DNA of 64,000 bases, taken from Streptomyces humicola (GTDB lineage: Bacteria; Actinomycetota; Actinomycetes; Streptomycetales; Streptomycetaceae). How positions within the stretch are numbered: position 1 is the first letter of the stretch; every line of letters begins with the position of its first letter. The DNA is taken from assembly GCF_024436035.1 (NCBI RefSeq), contig NZ_JANFNG010000002.1:62001-126000 (forward strand), read 5' to 3'. Shown piece by piece: positions 17,715 through 40,567 of this stretch. The position numbers and the translations under genes are program-made. Under the pieces are notes generated by a model. It did not search any database. It was not told where the DNA came from and saw nothing but the letters and a program-made list of their open reading frames with translations.

Positions 17715-17935
17715 CCCACCGATCATTTGACCTCTCTGCAGCATGAAGCCCAGGTGACGTACTTCGTGGTGGGGCACGGGGGGGGCGAGTCGATGTCGCC
17801 GGCGTAGTCCATCCACTCCTCCCTTCATCAAGGGCAGCGATGTCGCCGGTGGCCCAGGTGTCGACGAATGCCTCCCACCGGGCGTTGCTGGGCCGCATGG
17901 TCCGCTCCGGGGTGGTGTGGATGGCCGTCCGGCGG
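17715..17935 (-). pseudogene. Degenerate copy of the terminal-protein gene 3' end
   Basis: Read on the minus strand, this gives ERTMRPSNARWEAFVDTWAT and then GDIAALDE, matching ERTMRPSAARWEAFIDTWAT and GDVEAMDVE near the C-terminus of the terminal-protein-like gene at 36332-36997. The frame then breaks, but the end reappears as HEVRHLGFM against FEVRHVGFM. On the plus strand the shared sequence begins at the GCCCACCGATCAT just before each copy. A run of eight G near 17780 and an indel near 17820 account for the frame changes. Only about the last 70 codons are present. Confidence 0.8.
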
Positions 17936-29348: not shown

Positions 29349-29927
29349 ATGTCGTTGCTGCTGTGGGGGTCGTGGATGCCGTCGGTGGTTAGGCTGTTGG
29401 AACAGCGTGAGCTGGGTGCTCGCCGTCGGGTGGATGAGCTGCGGGAGGAGGCCGACCGGATCCAGGCCGAGCTGGCCGTGGCCGAGCGGGAATGGAAGGA
29501 ATGGGCCATTGCCCGCTCGCGGGTCTGCGAGGTGCTGGCCCCGGCGGGCGAAACCGGGCAGGACCACGCCCGGGCCGACCAGAGCGTGCCGGCCGCCGAG
29601 GAGCAGACCGGAAAGACGCCGCAGGTGCCGGAGGCGGCGAAGGCGAAGTCGCAGGTGCCCATGTGGCGCGAGGGGCTGGCCTGGTCGGCGTTGTCGGTGG
29701 ACTACCAGCGCATTCTGCAGGTGACAGCTGATCGGGCCCGGCTCGGTCAGGGGCCGGTGACCTGCCAGGAGATGGCCGCCTTGTTCGGCATGGACGTGGT
29801 GCCGGCGCGGGTGGAGGCACTGCGGTCGAAGGCGAAACGCCTGGTGGCGCGTGGCTGGCTGGCCGAGCCGGCTGCGGGCCGGTTCACGCCCGCCCGCGGT
29901 GTGAACCCGCCAGGCGGTGGGTCATGA
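29349..29927 (+). CDS. Element-borne coiled-coil/winged-helix accessory protein
   Basis: A 192-residue protein found in both IS5-like elements of this window; its function is unknown. The N-terminus (PSVVRLLEQRELGARRRVDE) leads into a charged coiled coil to about residue 55. A variable acidic linker follows, then a conserved block with LSVDYQRILQV. The C-terminal domain has CQEMAALFGMDVVPARVEAL, a winged-helix-like turn, and RSKAKRLVARGWL. The relative at 39794 shares this layout, with about half the residues identical by eye. It sits just inside the left inverted repeat, opposite the transposase. A regulator or DNA-binding helper of transposition is plausible. Confidence 0.75.
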   Translation: MSLLLWGSWMPSVVRLLEQRELGARRRVDELREEADRIQAELAVAEREWKEWAIARSRVCEVLAPAGETGQDHARADQSVPAAEEQTGKTPQVPEAAKAKSQVPMWREGLAWSALSVDYQRILQVTADRARLGQGPVTCQEMAALFGMDVVPARVEALRSKAKRLVARGWLAEPAAGRFTPARGVNPPGGGS

Positions 29928-30819: not shown

Positions 30820-32268
30820 ATGAGTCGAATGCGTAGCGTCGCCATCCTCGTAGCTGCCCTAGTGCCGACATTTATGACGGCACTGGATGGCGCCATCGTC
30901 AATGTGGCCCTGCCTCAAATCCGCAACGAACTCGCACTGGACGGAACCGATTTCAAGTGGGTCGCAGCCGTTTACCCTCTCACGCTCGCCAGCGTTCTCC
31001 TGCTGGGCGGACGCCTGGCTGACACCATCGGGCGGCGCGCGACCCTGTTGCTGGGCGTCGCCCTCTTCACCATGTCGTCGGTGGGCTGCAGCACCGCAAC
31101 CCAGGGGGGGACGCTGATCGTCTTCCGGGGACTGCAGGGATCGGGCGCAGCACTCATCATGCCCGCGTCCCTGGCAGTCCTGTCGCACGATCTCCCGCCC
31201 CGCGCACGAAATACGGGTTTCAGCGCCACGACCGCCATTATGGCCACAGCGCTCGCCTGCGGGCCAGTGCTCTCCGGTGTCATCACCCAGCACCTGGGCT
31301 GGTCGTGGCTCTTCGCCATGAACGCACCCCTGGGGTTCACGAGTCTGCTCGTCATTGCGCTTGCAGTCCCCCGCCATGCCCGCGGGTCCCGTGCTTCCCA
31401 GACGTTGTCGTCTACAGTGTCGATCCGCGCCGTCGTGCTGGCATGTCTCTCCCTGGCGGCCGTCGCCTATTGCCTGATCGAAGGACCCGAGATCGGGTTC
31501 GCCAGCCTTCCTGTCTTAATCTCTGGTGTGTTTGCTGTGATGTCAGCCGGAGGCTTGTGGTGCGAAATGAAGCTGCATCGGAGCGTGGCGCTGGGGATAC
31601 TGTTTCGTCAGCGTCCTTTCACGGGCGGGATCATCACTCAGCTCCTGTGGGGCTTGGGTGTGAGCGGTGTCTATTTCTTCACCTCCCAGTTCCTGCAGAA
31701 CAATCTCGGCCTCCGTCCGACGTCCGCCGGGCTGGCCTTCGCCCCTGTGGCCTTGTCCGTTCTGGCCGCCGCGCCATTCATCGCCCGCATGGCGCGACGT
31801 TGGGGGGACGGGCGAATCTCTGCCACAGGTCTGCTCCTGGTGGCCCTCGGTCTGCTACTGGTTGCGCTGGGGAGCACCAGTGGAAGCTTCGTCCATATCC
31901 TGCCGGGCCTGTCGGCCGTGGGCTTCGGCTCGGCTTTGGCTATCCCACTCACCACCCGGGCACTGGAATCGTCTCCGCGTCATATGTCCGGCATCGCCGC
32001 CGGCTTGTTCAGCGCCGCTCGTGAGGCATCCGGAGTCTTCGGCATCGCGTTCGTCGGTGCGATTGTGACGTTCGTGCAGCATGCAGCAGCGTCGGCGGGA
32101 GCCGGTCCCGCAGGCGCCTTCCTTTCCGGCTATCAGGCCGGCCTTTGTGTCGCGTCCGCCCTCGTTGCCGCTGGGGCACCCGTTGCGGTGTGGGCCCTGC
32201 GCTGTCTCCCGAACGCCGAGGACGGCGACGATCCGTCTTTGGTCTGGTTCGGCGAGGACAGGCAGTGA
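30820..32268 (+). CDS. MFS drug/proton antiporter, 14-helix (DHA2) type
   Basis: A 482-residue exporter. The ATG at 30820 has AGCAGG upstream and opens with the first helix (ILVAALVPTFMTALDGAIVN). The DHA2 motif LDGAIVNVALPQI and motif A (GGRLADTIGRRATLLLG) are visible, and the number of hydrophobic segments fits 14 helices. Substrate is unknown; such pumps often export antibiotics or dyes. The stop codon lies inside the 156-bp duplicated segment at 32252-32407, so the last few residues were created by that junction. Upstream lies the dead IS21 element, so local regulation is unclear. Confidence 0.88.
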   Translation: MSRMRSVAILVAALVPTFMTALDGAIVNVALPQIRNELALDGTDFKWVAAVYPLTLASVLLLGGRLADTIGRRATLLLGVALFTMSSVGCSTATQGGTLIVFRGLQGSGAALIMPASLAVLSHDLPPRARNTGFSATTAIMATALACGPVLSGVITQHLGWSWLFAMNAPLGFTSLLVIALAVPRHARGSRASQTLSSTVSIRAVVLACLSLAAVAYCLIEGPEIGFASLPVLISGVFAVMSAGGLWCEMKLHRSVALGILFRQRPFTGGIITQLLWGLGVSGVYFFTSQFLQNNLGLRPTSAGLAFAPVALSVLAAAPFIARMARRWGDGRISATGLLLVALGLLLVALGSTSGSFVHILPGLSAVGFGSALAIPLTTRALESSPRHMSGIAAGLFSAAREASGVFGIAFVGAIVTFVQHAAASAGAGPAGAFLSGYQAGLCVASALVAAGAPVAVWALRCLPNAEDGDDPSLVWFGEDRQ

Positions 32269-32407
32269 GCGGGCACCGCGCAAGTGGTATGTGCTGCAGA
32301 TGCTCGAGCTGGCCGGGGACGGCTTCATCGAGCCACCTCCAGAAGCTGCTACATCACGCCTCCTTCAGCGTTTGTGGCACACGATCTGCGGTTTTTCGTC
32401 CACCGCG
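32252..32407. repeat. 156-bp duplicated segment, copy A
   Basis: It matches 35909-36064 with five mismatches in 156 bases. It starts inside the last codons of the MFS gene and ends where a TIG-domain relic begins. On the minus strand its end encodes VDEKPQIV, an IS630-transposase-like motif. The spread of direct copies with different neighbours shows a recent duplication or transposition. Confidence 0.9.
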
Positions 32408-35376: not shown

Positions 35377-35856
35377 TCAGGCGGGTGATGCATCCGCGAC
35401 GGGGAGCCGTTCCGTTCCGCCGCCGAAGGGAAGGAAGACAGTGCGGCTGGCGAGGAACCAGGCGCCGTCGATCTTGCGGAAGATGTCCTCGTAGTGGCCA
35501 ACGTTCGCCGGGAGCCTGGGCTCGATCATTCCACCTGGGTAGCCATCGACCCGATATGTCGTCAGATACGAGATCGCCCGCGCTGTCGCCTCGGACTCCA
35601 CCGTGACCAGGATGTTCGTCATCAGACGGCGCGACAGCCTGTCCGCCGGGCGAGAGGCGAAATAGCCGCGCAGGGCCTCGCGCCCCTCGATGCGCCGGTC
35701 CCCGAAAGGCCAGTGCCAGACACCATCGGGCGTGAACAACTCGGCCACCGAACTCGGGTCGCCGAGGTCAAGGCGGTGGATGAAGTCCACAATGATGCGC
35801 TCGCAGGCGCGTTCCGCGAGCATCCGCTCGACCGGGGGCATGACCTTGTCGTCCAT
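35377..35856 (-). CDS. SnoaL-like/NTF2-fold protein
   Basis: A 159-residue protein of the SnoaL-like fold, which includes polyketide cyclases, isomerases and ring-hydroxylating dioxygenase-like small subunits. It reads ERIIVDFIHRLDLGDPSSVA, ELFTPDGVWHWPFG, GREALRGYFASRP and HYEDIFRKIDGAWFLASRTV, all typical. The ATG at 35856 follows a short AGGGG; an ATG at 35841 is possible. The duplicated segment copy B lies just upstream, so its original promoter may be lost. No partner genes are adjacent. Confidence 0.8.
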   Translation of the reverse strand: MDDKVMPPVERMLAERACERIIVDFIHRLDLGDPSSVAELFTPDGVWHWPFGDRRIEGREALRGYFASRPADRLSRRLMTNILVTVESEATARAISYLTTYRVDGYPGGMIEPRLPANVGHYEDIFRKIDGAWFLASRTVFLPFGGGTERLPVADASPA

Positions 35857-35908
35857 ACCCCTGTCTATCAGCCCTAACAGGTTCCAGAGCAACGGCTTTT
35901 CCGCACCA

Positions 35909-36064
35909 GCGAGGACGGGTAGTGAGCGGGCACCGCGCAAGTGGTATGTGCCGCAGATGCTCGAGCTGGCCCGGGACGGCTTCATCGAGCCACCTCCAGA
36001 AGCTGCTACATCACGCCTCCTTCAGCGTTCGTGGCACACGATCTGCGGTTTTTCGTCCACCGCG
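35909..36064. repeat. 156-bp duplicated segment, copy B
   Basis: Direct repeat of 32252-32407 with five mismatches. The left edge lies upstream of the SnoaL-like gene; the right edge joins the coding sequence of an IS630 transposase fragment exactly at its VDEKPQI motif. Confidence 0.9.
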
Positions 36065-36262
36065 TTCGCCAGCGGCGTCAGGTACAACCCCACCACGTCC
36101 CGGATCTTGTCGATCAGCAGCGGATCCGGGGAGATCTTGAAGGTCTCGGTCCGCCATGGCTCGAGGCCGAACGCCCGCCAGATGCGCAACACACTGCTCG
36201 GTGAGATCCCCACCCGCTTGGCCAGCTCCCGCTTCGACCAGTGCGTCGCACCTCCGGCACCT
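36065..36262 (-). pseudogene. IS630-family transposase fragment
   Basis: The frame reads THWSKRELAKRVGISPSSVL, then RIWRAFGLEPWRTETFKISP and IDKIRDVVGLYLTP. This is the helix-turn-helix and linker of IS630 transposases. It ends at LANAVDEKPQI, where the first catalytic Asp motif should continue. Upstream and downstream parts are missing. Confidence 0.85.
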
Positions 36263-36331
36263 CTTCCACGGTGCGTACCACTCCCGGCCCCGGGCGCCGT
36301 TCCCGCGCCCGGTGCCCACCGATCATCCGGG

Positions 36332-36997
36332 TCAGACCATGAATCCGACGTGACGTACCTCGAAGTAGGGCTCTGGGGGCGAGTCGATGTCGCCGGCGTA
36401 GTCCATCCACTCCACGTCCATGGCCTCGACGTCGCCGGTGGCCCAGGTGTCGATGAACGCCTCCCACCGTGCGGCGCTGGGCCGCATGGTGCGTTCCGAG
36501 GCGGTGTGGTGCTTGTCGGCGGCGACCTGCTGGGCACCTTGGGCCTGCGGGTGGACTTGCTCGCCAGTGATGGGGATGACGGTGATGGACCGGCCGCGCA
36601 TCCGTGTCCGTACCTGGGGGGCGACGGCCCCTCGGACCTCGGCCGACAGCGGGCGGCCGCGGGAGAAGCGGAGGTTGGAGCCGCGCAGCTGCCAGTAGGC
36701 GCGGTTGACGCGCTCCAGGTTGGCGCCGGACGGGCGGCTGCCTTCGCGGTGCCAGCGGCGCAGGGTGCTCTTCGGTACGCCTGCCGCGAGCAACGCCTCG
36801 TCACCGCCGGTGCGGGTGCCCAGGTACTTCAGCTGGCGGATGACGGAGGGTGAGTCGGCGCGGTCGGGGACGAGGCGTCCGGAGGCGAGTGCCTCGCGGA
36901 CCTGCGCGTCGAGGTTGGCGGCGAACTTCCTTCCGCCGCTGTCGGCGCCTCGGCCCCAGTTGCCCAGGTCTCCGCCGCTGCGTGGTGGGCGTGGCAT
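36332..36997 (-). CDS. Telomere terminal protein, Tpg/Tpc-like
   Basis: A 221-residue protein overlapping the upstream Tap-like gene by TGATG, so the two are co-translated. Terminal proteins are covalently bound to the 5' ends of linear Streptomyces replicons and prime end patching. It has a basic N-terminus, a helix-turn-helix near 70-105 (DEALLAAGVPKSTLRRWHRE), a middle region with SAEVRGAVAPQVRTRMRGRS, and an acidic C-terminus (DVEAMDVEWMDYAGDID). This order matches Tpg, though residue identity by eye is low, so it may belong to the SCP1-type Tpc class or a new one. The priming residue cannot be named. A degenerate copy of its 3' end lies at 17715-17935. Confidence 0.65.
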   Translation of the reverse strand: MPRPPRSGGDLGNWGRGADSGGRKFAANLDAQVREALASGRLVPDRADSPSVIRQLKYLGTRTGGDEALLAAGVPKSTLRRWHREGSRPSGANLERVNRAYWQLRGSNLRFSRGRPLSAEVRGAVAPQVRTRMRGRSITVIPITGEQVHPQAQGAQQVAADKHHTASERTMRPSAARWEAFIDTWATGDVEAMDVEWMDYAGDIDSPPEPYFEVRHVGFMV

Positions 36998-39309
36998 CAG
37001 TTACGCACCGCCCTTCCGCTCCACTCGTACGGCTCGCCCTTGACCTTGATCTCATTCAGGCTCGTGCCCTGGACGAAGACCGGCTTGCCGTCCAGGCGCG
37101 TGCCGAAGACGTCCTCGACGCCTCCGGCCAGGTGGAGTTCGTCGGTGCCCCCGGCGTAGGCAACGATCAGCCCTGCCCTGTGTGCCCGGATCGCCTTGCG
37201 CCACAGATTGGCAAACGCGTGGCCGCGGATGATGTGCTCCCAATCGGGACGCTTGATGTGGTGGTTGGCGCCCGAGTCGCCGATCGTCGAGACGAGGACC
37301 GCGTACATTTTCGCGACGTAGGTTTTGGTGAGCGCGTCGCCGTCGGCGATGGCCCGCGAGCGGGCGTCCCGCAGGATACCCACAAGGATCTTGAACAGGT
37401 TGTCCGTTCCCTTCGCCACATACGCCTCACGGATGCGCGGCAGCTCCTCGAGCAGGCCGGCGTTCTTGGCGTCCTTCAATTTGGCATACACCGAGGTGGG
37501 CACCCAGAGTCGTCCTGCGGTCTCCCGGTCGTCGCCGAGCGGGTGCGGCAGATGCGCGTGCGGCCACTTGGGTTGGTCGATCAGCACGATGCCGGCGAGG
37601 TTGACCCCGCGGCCGTAAGCGTCGGGGTTCTCCCACGACCACTCGCGGCCCTTGGGATCGGTGACGACCGGATTGTGGGTGATCGAGCGCACCGGCAGGG
37701 CTGCGGCGCCGAGGGCGGACAGGTAGGCGCCGTTCACGTCGAGCGGCGTCACGGTCTGCCTGATCAGTTCCTTGGCGGGGTTGGTGTACTTCGGGCGTGC
37801 TTCCCACACCTCGTCAGCGTTGCCGCGGCGCTTGCGGATCAGCGGGTCGGGAAGCTCTGGGTAGGCGGTGGGTTCATAGCGGCCGCCGACACGGGTTGCA
37901 TCCCACAGCTCCATCACGTCCTCAATCGACTGCCCCGCCTTGTTGGGCTCACCAGCGAGGTAGACAAGGGCCGCGTCCCGATCGCCGCCATGCGACTCCA
38001 GGGCGCTGGCGACGCGGTCGGGGATGAAGGAGACCAGGTCGGGCCGCTCGGCTGTGTTGCGGCGCGGGGGCCTTGCCGGCGGCGTCGACGCGGCGGGGGG
38101 CTCGTCCGGTTCGGCGGGAGGGTTGCCTGGTAGCGGGGGTGCAGGGGCGGGCGTGTGGGCAGCAGTGGTGGTGGTGCTGGAGGGCGGCTGTTCGCCGGGG
38201 TCGGCGAACCGGGCGTGGGCCAAGTCGGCGCGCAGCATGATCGTCGCCACCTGGCCGAAGTCGCGTTCGGCGATGGTGACTTCGGCCACCTGATCGCTGC
38301 GGACCAGGGTCAAGGTCACGTCAGCATTGAGTGTGCCAATCACGTTCGGGTCGTCGGTGTCCACGGCGGCCAGGACGGGCACCTGCTGGGTGCGGGCGAG
38401 GTGTGCCAGAGTACGGGCGGCTGCGGGCAGGACGGGGCCGGACAGGGGGACTTGGGGGTCATGGAGGTGTTGGAGGCGGTCCACCACGATCAGCGCCAGG
38501 TGCTCCACGTCCGGGGCGGTAGCGGCGATCGCCTCGGCGGTCAGGTCGCCTCCGTCATCGATGTGCAGCGCAGCCTGGGACAGGCGAGCGGTCGCCTCGG
38601 CGACCGCCACGTGCTCGCTCGCCGTCAAGGCACCGGCGCGTAGGCGACGGTAATCGGCACCCGCCTCAGCGGCGATCACTCTGGCCGCGACGTCGGCGCG
38701 GGTCAGTCCCGAGGCCGCGTACAGCACCGGCTTACCGTCCTCGAGCGCTACCTGGCGGGCCGCTGCCGCGGCAAGCAAGCTTCCTCCGGCCCCTGGCGCA
38801 GCGGCGATCAACACCAACCGGCCAGGCAACAGCCCTCCGGTGGCGGCATCCAGCCCATCCAGGCCGAAACTGACGCCGACCGTGGTGTCCGGGCCGAGGA
38901 AGTCGCCCATCACGTCGCTGAGTGTGGCCAGCGCCCGCCCAGAGGCGGCCGGGGATGCGGCGGCGGGGGCAGGCGTGCTGTGGTCTGTCTCGATGGCCGT
39001 GGCGGGAAGCAGGACCGCGACCGGAGTCCGGCGGCGTCGCAGGACTTGCGGTTCCCCCCCGGCTGCAGCATCGACCAGCTCCCCCAGCTTCTTTCGTGCC
39101 TCAGTCACCGGCAACGACGGCAGCGCTGCTACGTGTTGTTCTCCCAAGCGGACCAGCGGCGCCAGTACGGCGGTGCGGGAGCCTCGCGCGATCAGCGTGA
39201 CCGTGCCCGTCTCCGCGGCCCCCACCAGCTGGTACAGCGCCTTACGCGCATCCTCGATCAGCAACACTTCTGCGGCCCGTGACGCCTGGCCCGGCTCCTG
39301 CTCAGACAA
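36997..39309 (-). CDS. Telomere-associated protein, Tap/Tac-like, with Phd-like and DnaB-like N-terminal domains
   Basis: A 770-residue multidomain protein. Residues about 12-55 and 63-102 look like two Phd/YefM antitoxin-like units (LPVTEARKKLGELVDAAAGG, PVAVLLP). Residues about 140-370 resemble the DnaB/RecA core, but the P-loop is AAPGAGGSLL (170-179), with Gly where the essential Lys belongs; LALIVVDRLQ (271-280) matches Walker B. A Pro-rich linker (371-420) follows. The C-terminal 300 residues align with Streptomyces Tap: TPLDVNGAYLSAL (521-533), a conserved YVAKMYAVLV segment (664-673) and AYAGGTDELHL (717-727), in the order of family B polymerase motifs A, B and C. Tap and Tac are reported to add deoxynucleotides to terminal proteins. 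The gene directly precedes and overlaps the terminal-protein gene. Confidence 0.68.
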   Translation of the reverse strand: MSEQEPGQASRAAEVLLIEDARKALYQLVGAAETGTVTLIARGSRTAVLAPLVRLGEQHVAALPSLPVTEARKKLGELVDAAAGGEPQVLRRRRTPVAVLLPATAIETDHSTPAPAAASPAASGRALATLSDVMGDFLGPDTTVGVSFGLDGLDAATGGLLPGRLVLIAAAPGAGGSLLAAAAARQVALEDGKPVLYAASGLTRADVAARVIAAEAGADYRRLRAGALTASEHVAVAEATARLSQAALHIDDGGDLTAEAIAATAPDVEHLALIVVDRLQHLHDPQVPLSGPVLPAAARTLAHLARTQQVPVLAAVDTDDPNVIGTLNADVTLTLVRSDQVAEVTIAERDFGQVATIMLRADLAHARFADPGEQPPSSTTTTAAHTPAPAPPLPGNPPAEPDEPPAASTPPARPPRRNTAERPDLVSFIPDRVASALESHGGDRDAALVYLAGEPNKAGQSIEDVMELWDATRVGGRYEPTAYPELPDPLIRKRRGNADEVWEARPKYTNPAKELIRQTVTPLDVNGAYLSALGAAALPVRSITHNPVVTDPKGREWSWENPDAYGRGVNLAGIVLIDQPKWPHAHLPHPLGDDRETAGRLWVPTSVYAKLKDAKNAGLLEELPRIREAYVAKGTDNLFKILVGILRDARSRAIADGDALTKTYVAKMYAVLVSTIGDSGANHHIKRPDWEHIIRGHAFANLWRKAIRAHRAGLIVAYAGGTDELHLAGGVEDVFGTRLDGKPVFVQGTSLNEIKVKGEPYEWSGRAVRN

Positions 39310-39711: not shown

Positions 39712-40350
39712 GAAGCCGTTGTCGTACCGAACGTGATCGTTGCGTTTCTGCTGGTCAGGCATGAACTCGGTGATTTCGCGGGAGAGATGACGCGTGGCGT
39801 CGTCTCGTCCGTGGAGGTTGCGGGTGCCGTCGGTGGTTGGACTGCTGGAGGAGCGCGAGCTGGTTGCCCGCCAGCGGGTGGAGGAACTGCGCGAGGAAGC
39901 GGACCGGATCCAGGCCGCGCTTCAGGAGGCGGAGACCGACTGGGAGCGGTGGGTGATCGCCCGGGAGCGGGTCGATCAGGTCCTGGCCGCGCCGTGTGAG
40001 GTGGGGCCTGGGCAGGCGACCGGGGCCGCGACGACGGCTGCGCCAAAGTCGCGCACTGGTGCTGTACCCGGGTCGGTGGTGCCGGTGCGGCGCGAAGGGC
40101 TCGAGGTAGCCGTGCTGGCCGTGGACTACCAGCGGATCACGAACATCGTGGCCGACCACGAACGGACCGCTGCTGGTCCGGTCAGCTGCCAGCAGATCGC
40201 CGACGCACTGGGGCTCGATCCGGTCCCGGCGAAGGTCGAAGGGGTGCGGTCGAAGGCGAAACGCCTGGTGCAGCGGGGGTGGTTCCGCGATCACTCGATC
40301 GGGACTCCCGTTCGATCAACAAGCCCCGTGATCGGTACGACAACGGCTTC
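39712..40350. mobile_element. 639-bp transposase-less IS5-like element (MITE-like derivative)
   Basis: Perfect 19-bp terminal inverted repeats, GAAGCCGTTGTCGTACCGA at 39712-39730 and its complement at 40332-40350, extended to 22 bp by flanking TGA/TCA. The ends match those of the element at 29264-30390, and both right ends carry a conserved inner motif ACTCCCGTTCGA. It contains only the coiled-coil/winged-helix gene. The transposase segment present in the first element has been deleted between about 40290 and the right-end motif. Flanking trinucleotides (TGA left, TCA right) both fit TNA but differ, so a clean target duplication is not shown. Confidence 0.85.
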
Positions 40351-40567
40351 TCAGATCGCTCATCACTCCCCCTCCCCCACACATGATCAGCGGCAGCAGG
40401 CTAACAGCCCAAGCACCACCAACCCACCCCGGTCGGCGGGCTTCGGCGTCGTCGATCGGGCCGGGCCTCTGTTCACCGGCGTCATCTTCCTTGCCGATCG
40501 GCTTGGGTTCGGTGAAGTCGTCGATGCGCGCCGCCGGACTACCTCAATGCGATGGGAGCGGGTGTGA
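39794..40567 (+). CDS. Element-borne coiled-coil/winged-helix protein, second copy, with run-on end
   Basis: A GTG at 39794, after GGAGAG, opens a frame that starts like the first element's protein (VPSVVGLLEERELVARQRVE, then EELREEADRIQAALQEAE). The conserved LAVDYQRITNIVADH block and CQQIADALGLDPVPAKVEGV-RSKAKRLVQRGW domain follow. After GWFRD the sequence runs through the right end of the element and on to 40567, even overlapping the 3' end of the next gene. The last 75 or so residues are therefore unrelated read-through. Function is unknown. Confidence 0.7.
   Translation: MASSRPWRLRVPSVVGLLEERELVARQRVEELREEADRIQAALQEAETDWERWVIARERVDQVLAAPCEVGPGQATGAATTAAPKSRTGAVPGSVVPVRREGLEVAVLAVDYQRITNIVADHERTAAGPVSCQQIADALGLDPVPAKVEGVRSKAKRLVQRGWFRDHSIGTPVRSTSPVIGTTTASQIAHHSPSPTHDQRQQANSPSTTNPPRSAGFGVVDRAGPLFTGVIFLADRLGFGEVVDARRRTTSMRWERV

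Follow-up and report, generated by a model that had tools for sequence, protein, structure and literature searches.

Streptomyces and its relatives keep linear chromosomes by protein-primed DNA synthesis. We analysed a window of 64,000 nucleotides from Streptomyces humicola (C22:62001-126000; contig C22 is 565,614 bp long, and the 7.07-Mb genome, in 78 contigs, is rated 100% complete), in which two reverse-strand genes encode a candidate telomere polymerase of 770 amino acids (aa), P0001, and a candidate terminal protein (TP) of 221 aa, P0002:

36997..39309, reverse strand: gene, starting with TTG, of the candidate telomere polymerase of 770 aa (two Phd units, degenerate DnaB, PolB core); from its open reading frame (ORF), Pfam, AlphaFold and Foldseek
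36332..36997, reverse strand: gene of the 221-aa TP candidate; from its ORF and from relatives that adjoin the core gene in plasmids

The two genes have one base in common, the stop codon (TGA) of the first running into the start codon (ATG) of the second as TGATG, and GC at the third codon position (GC3) is 0.84 in the 770-aa ORF and 0.88 in the 221-aa ORF. A sequence-only reading of the window had described this overlapping pair as a TP with its telomere polymerase. The ORFs, their GC3 and their recurrence in many genomes confirmed the pair, and because the pattern recurs in this way we do not attribute it to chance. The S. humicola genome contained a single core gene with no second found, and searches of it returned neither an archetypal Tpg (E <= 0.01), nor an archetypal Tap, nor a match to DNA_pol_B_2 (PF03175). 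The search at genus level covered two genomes, S. humicola included.

The predicted polymerase core and its relation to Tap

The C-terminal half of P0001 carries three predicted features:

37000..38064, reverse strand: predicted B-family polymerase core, residues 416-770 (palm, TPR1-like part, fingers); from AlphaFold, Foldseek, VIA and motif spacing
37738..37740, reverse strand: codon of D524, putative motif A carboxylate (LDVNGAY), counterpart of phi29 D249; invariant in the family alignment (A3) and aligned with phi29 motif A
37141..37143, reverse strand: codon of D723, putative motif C carboxylate (GTDELHL), counterpart of phi29 D458; invariant in A3 and aligned with DTDSIHL

The AlphaFold model of the core, built with A3 (54 relatives plus P0001), had a predicted local distance difference test (pLDDT) of 87.4 and a predicted template modelling score (pTM) of 0.86. 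Foldseek returned 313 PDB matches for it at E <= 10. All nine matches at E <= 0.001 were phi29 DNA polymerase, with a best E of 4.2e-8 and the phi29 polymerase-TP complex 2ex3 at 1.9e-6, and ranks 10-50 among the matches listed were B-family polymerases by title. VIA-align gave five phi29 entries at Z 17.9-18.8 and the next row at 12.4; all 50 rows listed were B-family by title, a label that for the lower-ranked structures we presume from their titles. The VIA alignments to phi29 covered 271-287 residues at 3.7-4.7 Å with 12% identity. Additionally, phage DNA polymerases headed the core's matches in a viral structure library. This structural match is the main evidence for the PolB identity of the core, which is predicted with high confidence to be a protein-primed, phi29-type member of the B family of DNA polymerases. 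The core had earlier been called polymerase-like, and this prediction goes further than that wording.

Residues 23-355 of the core model paired with phi29 residues 169/170-499 in three of the five rows, and the other two rows began at 122/123. On the phi29 domain borders that we assume, the exonuclease domain and the thumb would fall outside this aligned range. The motif A Asp and the motif B Tyr are separated by 145 residues in P0001 and 141 in phi29. From the motif B Tyr to the conserved Arg there are 26 residues in P0001 and 48 in phi29, and because of this difference the TPR2 insertion appears to be missing. By range and spacing, the core is predicted to keep the palm, the TPR1-like part and the fingers and to lack the exonuclease, TPR2 and the thumb. 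In the excerpted text of PMC4974454, D249 and D458 are the phi29 carboxylates with metal-binding roles, the TP intermediate domain is contacted chiefly by TPR1, and TPR2 forms the processivity clamp with the palm, thumb and TPR1.

A genome scan with the core profile gave 273 stretches, 265 of them confirmed. We kept the best 80 of the 265 as relatives, without regard to motifs A and C, and aligned 54 of the 80 loci (clustered at 88% identity) with P0001 (A3). Motifs A and C were both kept in 80/80 relatives. The order of motifs A, B and C, which had been read from the C-terminal sequence, was confirmed structurally, with the caveat that P0001 departs from its relatives in motif B. The DTD of motif C was not complete: it was GTD in P0001, SDC in 18/18 Tap cores and NVD in the five sequences of a third branch (A7). 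A full DTD is usual in the B family and is not needed for the two metal ligands.

Neither P0001 nor P0002 matched the NCBIfam models of archetypal Tap (NF047542, 600-bit cut-off) and Tpg (NF047541) at E <= 1, and L032, a relative with an XRE-type helix-turn-helix (HTH), reached only 70 bits on the Tap model. We collected archetypal Tap genes from genomes that core loci had led to and from other genomes, and 18/20 Tap loci entered an alignment of their C-terminal cores (A5; two failed the extraction pattern). D-[VIL]-N and SDC were present in 18/18 extracted sequences. Compared by hhalign, the Tap cores matched the family core (A3) at E 2.3e-7 (score 58.7, probability 93.5%); this was reached by 0/100 shuffles, the best of which scored 24.7. 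P0001, with no match to the Tap model, is not an archetypal Tap; it is a member of a sister family whose N-termini vary. The earlier description of the core as Tap-type is correct as to homology and incorrect as to family membership.

The third branch, A7 (L007, L008 and L185-L187; motif A [IV]DRNGS[YF]PSA), carries a Phd-DnaB N-terminus ahead of the core in L007 and in four further proteins whose annotation is DnaB-like. It matched the A3 family at E 4.7e-26 and Tap more weakly (E 0.0019), and is possibly a Tac-like branch. When the three branches were pooled (the top 25 of the 55 A3 rows, with 18 rows from A5 and five from A7), the profile matched 11 phage protein-primed polymerases with a score of 37.2 (E 7.7e-4, probability 25%) over 255 co-linear columns; 0/100 column shuffles reached this score (best 19.4). 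A control comparison of the TP alignment (A2) with A3 scored 15.8, which 30/100 shuffles reached. The alignment of A3 itself with the phage polymerases was co-linear through motifs A, B and C. PHROGs contained nothing for the core part, and scans of viral contigs gave 12 stretches with the core profile and one with archetypal Tap, with 0 confirmed in either case. For Tap, the PolB reading derives from its homology with the modelled core, from the pooled profile and from visible motifs rather than from a Tap model; it offers a polymerase class for Tap, that of a divergent B-family enzyme.

Of 61 genomes sampled from the family, 38 contained Tap at E <= 1e-100 and 20 contained the core at E <= 1e-10. 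Three weak core matches (G046, G053 and G060) were dropped before complementarity with Tap was counted. Strong core matches (E < 1e-50) occurred in 10/23 genomes without Tap and 7/38 with Tap, a difference (Fisher p 0.044, uncorrected for kinship) to which we give no weight.

N-terminal modules and the candidate terminal protein

Ahead of the core, P0001 contains three further segments:

39130..39267, reverse strand: first Phd-like unit, residues ~15-60; from model secondary structure only, with no Pfam match
39001..39117, reverse strand: second Phd/YefM unit, residues 65-103; from PF02604 at 66-103 and TIGR01552 at 65-103
38230..38877, reverse strand: DnaB/RecA-fold domain without the P-loop Lys, residues ~145-360; from Pfam, Foldseek and a motif table

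Two Phd/YefM-like units had been read from the sequence. The second was recovered by PhdYeFM (PF02604) at residues 66-103 (E 2.4e-9, 37.3 bits against a cut-off of 29.8, for this unit only), and the first by secondary structure in the full-length AlphaFold model (22 sequences, mean pLDDT 67.8, pTM 0.50), where residues 18-50 and 65-102 have a helix-helix-strand-strand order in common. In this model, ten-residue blocks of residues 21-100 had a pLDDT of 68-88, and the stretches of low confidence were 108-174 and 360-421. Pfam DnaB_C matched residues 145-315 at E 4.7e-23, covering only positions 1-175 of the 255 in the domain model, and DnaB_N was not matched. Pfam assigned no credible family to the C-terminal half of P0001. 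DnaB-type helicases were among the 50 rows listed by Foldseek for the full-length model, by their titles; we also take 2r6a/2r6d/2r6e and 2vye/2vyf, whose titles omit DnaB, to be of this family.

The P-loop of P0001 reads APGAGGS, without the Lys, as had been noticed from the letters, and SGLTRAD stands where intact DnaB relatives carry SLEM. The Lys was absent in 14/14 sequences with a P0001-type DnaB-like domain and a P-loop present (P0001, L004-L009, L019, L022, L035, L038 and L185-L187; L021 ends before the P-loop), which argues that the degenerate ATPase is a trait of the lineage and not a defect of this copy. The complete-DnaB proteins L010 (NCBIfam) and L016 (Pfam) retained GKST and SLEM. 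Overall, the analysis supports the earlier suggestion of a TP/telomere-polymerase pair with built-in DNA-binding units and a degenerate ATPase.

Among the 80 relatives, phmmer matched the DnaB-like segment in six and the Phd segment in two. We typed the N-termini of chosen examples with Pfam and found an XRE-type HTH ahead of the core in L032 and L011, a complete DnaB in L016 (and in L010, by NCBIfam) and a DUF927 match in L017. L004 (NZ_CP108678.1; 1,947 aa) had AAA_22 and DnaB_C matches with a Phd match below the cut-off, and L023 had no Pfam match. An archetypal Tap, L148, begins with an XRE-type HTH (Pfam HTH_3), as had been said of Streptomyces Tap. Several further observations concern these relatives. 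Very long versions exist (L004; L006, 1,347 aa; L194; and a gene of 4,806 bp in NBC_01454), and in L004 Phd-DnaB-core is preceded by the AAA_22 match and by similar segments that, by eye, are repeated. L010 and L016, with a complete DnaB (GKST) on the same core, are possible single-chain helicase-polymerases. Contigs titled Microtetraspora glauca (L057) and Streptomyces xylophagus (L062) are equal in length (16,490) and yield an identical match, and L057 may be mislabelled.

The following features relate to the TP:

36704..36802, reverse strand: HTH-like segment of the TP candidate, residues ~66-98; from a MerR match below the cut-off and a weak resemblance to Tpg
36380..36382, reverse strand: codon of S206, candidate priming residue; Ser or Thr in 69/69 aligned TPs, with Y58 and Y101 as rivals
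17739..17919, reverse strand: relic of a second TP gene in two pieces (residues 164-194 and 206-221); from a tblastn search of its own genome

P0002 was 50% identical to the TP of L010 and 18-28% identical to the other seven aligned TPs. Across a set of 69 TPs (7 of the 9 in A2 plus others filtered by length and motif, which favours TPs of the core family), the hydroxyl positions constant in kind were Y58, Y101 and S206 (S or T). Because it follows an acidic stretch (DIDS), S206 is our first guess for the priming residue. In the excerpt of PMC3572947, Tpg primes from T114, which Ser can replace. The automatic choice of a TP at the 80 loci looks wrong for some (for example L016, 276 aa) and is missing for 6/80. 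The relic matched P0002 with 77% and 62% identity (tblastn E 2.7e-18) and has Ala at the position of S206. An ORF at 36022-36340 (reverse strand) overlaps the 3' end of the TP gene and extends beyond it; by eye it resembles a transposase fragment, and it had no Pfam match. Similar beginnings were also seen in the ORFs at 31855-32328 and 35377-35985 (both reverse) and in those at 29349-29927 and 39794-40567 (both forward), which suggests duplicated segments or insertion-element remnants around the operon.

Plasmid relatives and replicon ends

By tblastn, parts of P0001 matched 146 plasmid records (E <= 1e-5), with no place covering 80% of the protein, and P0002 matched 118 (E <= 0.01); all of these records bear Streptomycetaceae genus names. 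We opened 13 annotated records chosen from the listed matches (a 14th, pSCAT, carries no annotation), and a TP-size gene of 190-212 codons lay 3' of the core gene in 13/13. In six of the 13 this gene was <=1.4 kb from the record end, one of the six, pKP058, being labelled circular. The other end was fetched for three plasmids, and in two of them, NBC_01216 and NBC_00582, the same TP accession stood at both ends, within inverted repeats of ~1.5 kb or more that were 100% and 99.9% identical over the compared stretch.

We derived a box, GCTGGCTASGDGGAGGGK, from four plasmid loci, where it lies near the ends; it was absent from the other 189 of 193 loci. A looser form, GCTGGCTA.G.GGAGGG, was present at both ends of NBC_01216 and NBC_00582, in pKP058 and at the left end of NBC_01304, and was not found at the right end of NBC_01304 or in NBC_01454 (whose record starts ~272 bp further in than that of NBC_00582), NBC_00280 and pshk1. 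In L004, L005, L006, L010, L196 and L197, the box GCTGGCTA-G-GGAGGG lies ~48-186 bp from the plasmid ends, beside small palindromes, and is a possible binding site of the class. Over the first 150 nt, folding went well beyond mononucleotide shuffles at only 2/10 ends (NBC_01304 left, z -3.6; pKP058, z -2.6). The start of C22 was considered as a telomere for its strong hairpins and is not called one because a 30-bp hairpin piece recurs at C22:17994-18023.

Proposed end patching, its alternatives and known systems

We propose, with a probability of roughly 75%, that P0001 and P0002 form a telomere end-patching module consisting of a TP primer and a minimal phi29-type polymerase. The TP would offer a side-chain hydroxyl as primer, and the core would add the first deoxynucleotides to it on the 3' overhang at the end of a replicon that is presumably linear. 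The TPR1-like part would hold the TP, and D524 and D723 would bind the metals. Because the core is predicted to be without thumb, TPR2 and exonuclease, a short product is expected; like Tap, which together with Tpg alone performs TP-primed synthesis to 13 nt in vitro (PMC4513846, excerpt), it would make only a short primer and then hand over to the host polymerase. Targeting would fall to the N-terminal part, in which two Phd units in one chain may imitate the DNA-binding Phd dimer and the degenerate DnaB domain may act as a passive module that binds single strands or the host DnaB ring, rather than as a motor. We also consider it likely that telomere polymerases in general are built from an interchangeable core and swappable modules (XRE, Phd with dead DnaB, intact DnaB or DUF927) with TPs of their own, and that the lost thumb, TPR2 and exonuclease explain why Tap stops at 13 nt.

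Several results count against the end-patching proposal. At the level of sequence profiles, A3 alone scored 23.8 against the 11 phage polymerases (probability 1.1%), a score reached by 2/100 shuffles; the archetypal Tap cores alone scored 15.9 in hhalign, reached by 38/100; and A7 alone scored 18.5 (probability 0.3%), which is not significant. A PDB profile search with the core gave four chance matches, none credible, and a Pfam scan of eight cores at E <= 10 gave scattered weak matches only. In P0001 itself, G721 of motif C sits where phi29 has the first Asp, and motif B has A666-K667 in place of the K-A of most relatives and V671 in place of K, so that the near-invariant lysines K666 and K671 of the relatives are lost. 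The TP family resembled Tpg in the HTH segment only (score 21.3 vs 19.7 for the best of 60 shuffles, with only four Tpg sequences compared), and alignment gave no position in P0002 for T114 of Tpg. As to the replicon, the gene pair lies ~98-101 kb from the start of C22; no telomere was found when the S. humicola contig ends were compared with the ends of related plasmids; GCTGGCTASGDGGAGGGK is absent from the S. humicola genome with one mismatch allowed; and the left end of NBC_01304 is not repeated at its right end.

One rival reading we regard as unlikely, though with a real chance of being right: that the pair is a remnant of a mobile element, either a plasmid or an integrated linear element, and that the present replicon is perhaps circular or uses another system. 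The neighbourhood of accessory genes, the repeated ORF starts, the TP relic and the position 98 kb inside a contig without a visible telomere would fit such an origin. Both genes are nevertheless intact and overlapping, and a genome rated 100% complete, in 78 contigs, contained no Tpg, Tap or second core gene.

In a less probable reading the core, its polymerase fold retained, would be inactive or decaying in this copy and would serve as an end-binding scaffold for the TP, with the host DinB1/2 performing nucleotidylation, as was first proposed for Tap. It could account for the Gly at the first Asp of motif C, the differing motif B lysines and the TP relic nearby, and the excerpted text of PMC4513846 has linear replicons needing DinB1 or DinB2. 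However, motifs A and C are kept in all 80 relatives, both ORFs of the pair are intact and have a GC3 like that of coding sequence, and the abstract of the same paper describes Tap as needing no added polymerase in vitro. Finally, a helicase-polymerase machine, in which the DnaB part would join a ring with host DnaB to carry the core to the end while its partners supply the ATPase, is very improbable: L010 and L016 do carry a complete DnaB, with GKST and SLEM, in one chain with this core, and L017 has a DUF927 match before it, but the Lys is absent in all 14 P0001-type domains, DnaB_N is not matched in P0001, and the scanned XRE relatives L032 and L011 had no helicase match.

The end-patching module, which we prefer, would bear on a puzzle. 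The enzyme that primes telomeres in these bacteria was enigmatic, as Tap works in vitro yet was reported without similarity to any polymerase; an excerpt from Yang et al. 2015 (PMC4513846) states that Tap's discoverers found no polymerase motif. If the core is of the B family, bacterial telomere replication would join phi29 and adenovirus in one mechanism, and the assignment would name catalytic residues and suggest why the product is short. N-terminal modules as varied as these indicate telomere systems other than Tap/Tpg and Tac/Tpc, the only telomeric proteins characterised as of 2021 according to excerpts of PMC8743542. In Streptomyces rimosus ATCC 10970 (Sg2247 telomeres), the same excerpts report, none of the known telomeric proteins turned up. 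Another S. rimosus strain, at L043, has a core protein with an XRE-like start and an adjoining gene of 191 aa. In the literature searched, which left subscription papers mostly outside its scope, we found no report of Tap-like proteins as B-family polymerases or of a Phd-DnaB-Tap architecture, and the words Streptomyces, telomere and terminal protein are absent from the main text of a 2020 survey of B-family polymerases (PMC7544198).

Compared with archetypal Tap and Tpg, the pair has the same operon order, polymerase then TP, a homologous C-terminal core with a D-x-N motif A and an Asp at motif C, and an HTH-like segment in the TP. By contrast, Tap starts with an XRE-type HTH where P0001 has Phd units and a DnaB domain, and P0002 resembles Tpg in the HTH segment only, and weakly. 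The XRE-core/TP pairs of Streptomycetaceae have the same gene order and core (45% identity in L011 and 43% in L012), but an XRE-type HTH replaces Phd-DnaB, and the L011 TP is 28% identical to P0002; RefSeq annotates the L011 pair as a helix-turn-helix protein and a hypothetical protein. The closest cores found were those of Streptomyces sp. NBC_01304 (L010, 58% identity, which also has the closest TP, at 48-50%) and B-S-A8 (L016, 57%), both of which differ in that their DnaB is complete (GKST) and a Phd match is absent. Linear plasmid pRL2, likened here from its description alone, is a published precedent for combining helicase and Tap: one of its proteins resembles both Tap and a helicase, and another resembles Tpg (PMC8743542, excerpt, which does not mention a polymerase fold). 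The second Phd unit has the fold of Phd/YefM antitoxins by its PF02604 match, and the DnaB-like domain differs from the replicative helicase DnaB in having no DnaB_N match and no Walker A Lys. With phi29 polymerase, the core has in common the predicted palm and fingers fold, the carboxylates of motifs A and C and a TP partner; it differs in the exonuclease and thumb, which lie outside the aligned range, in having no TPR2, in GTD for DTD and in an identity of ~12%. TP-primed patching of telomere ends is a known kind of system, and the mechanistic, B-family claim made here extends beyond this gene.

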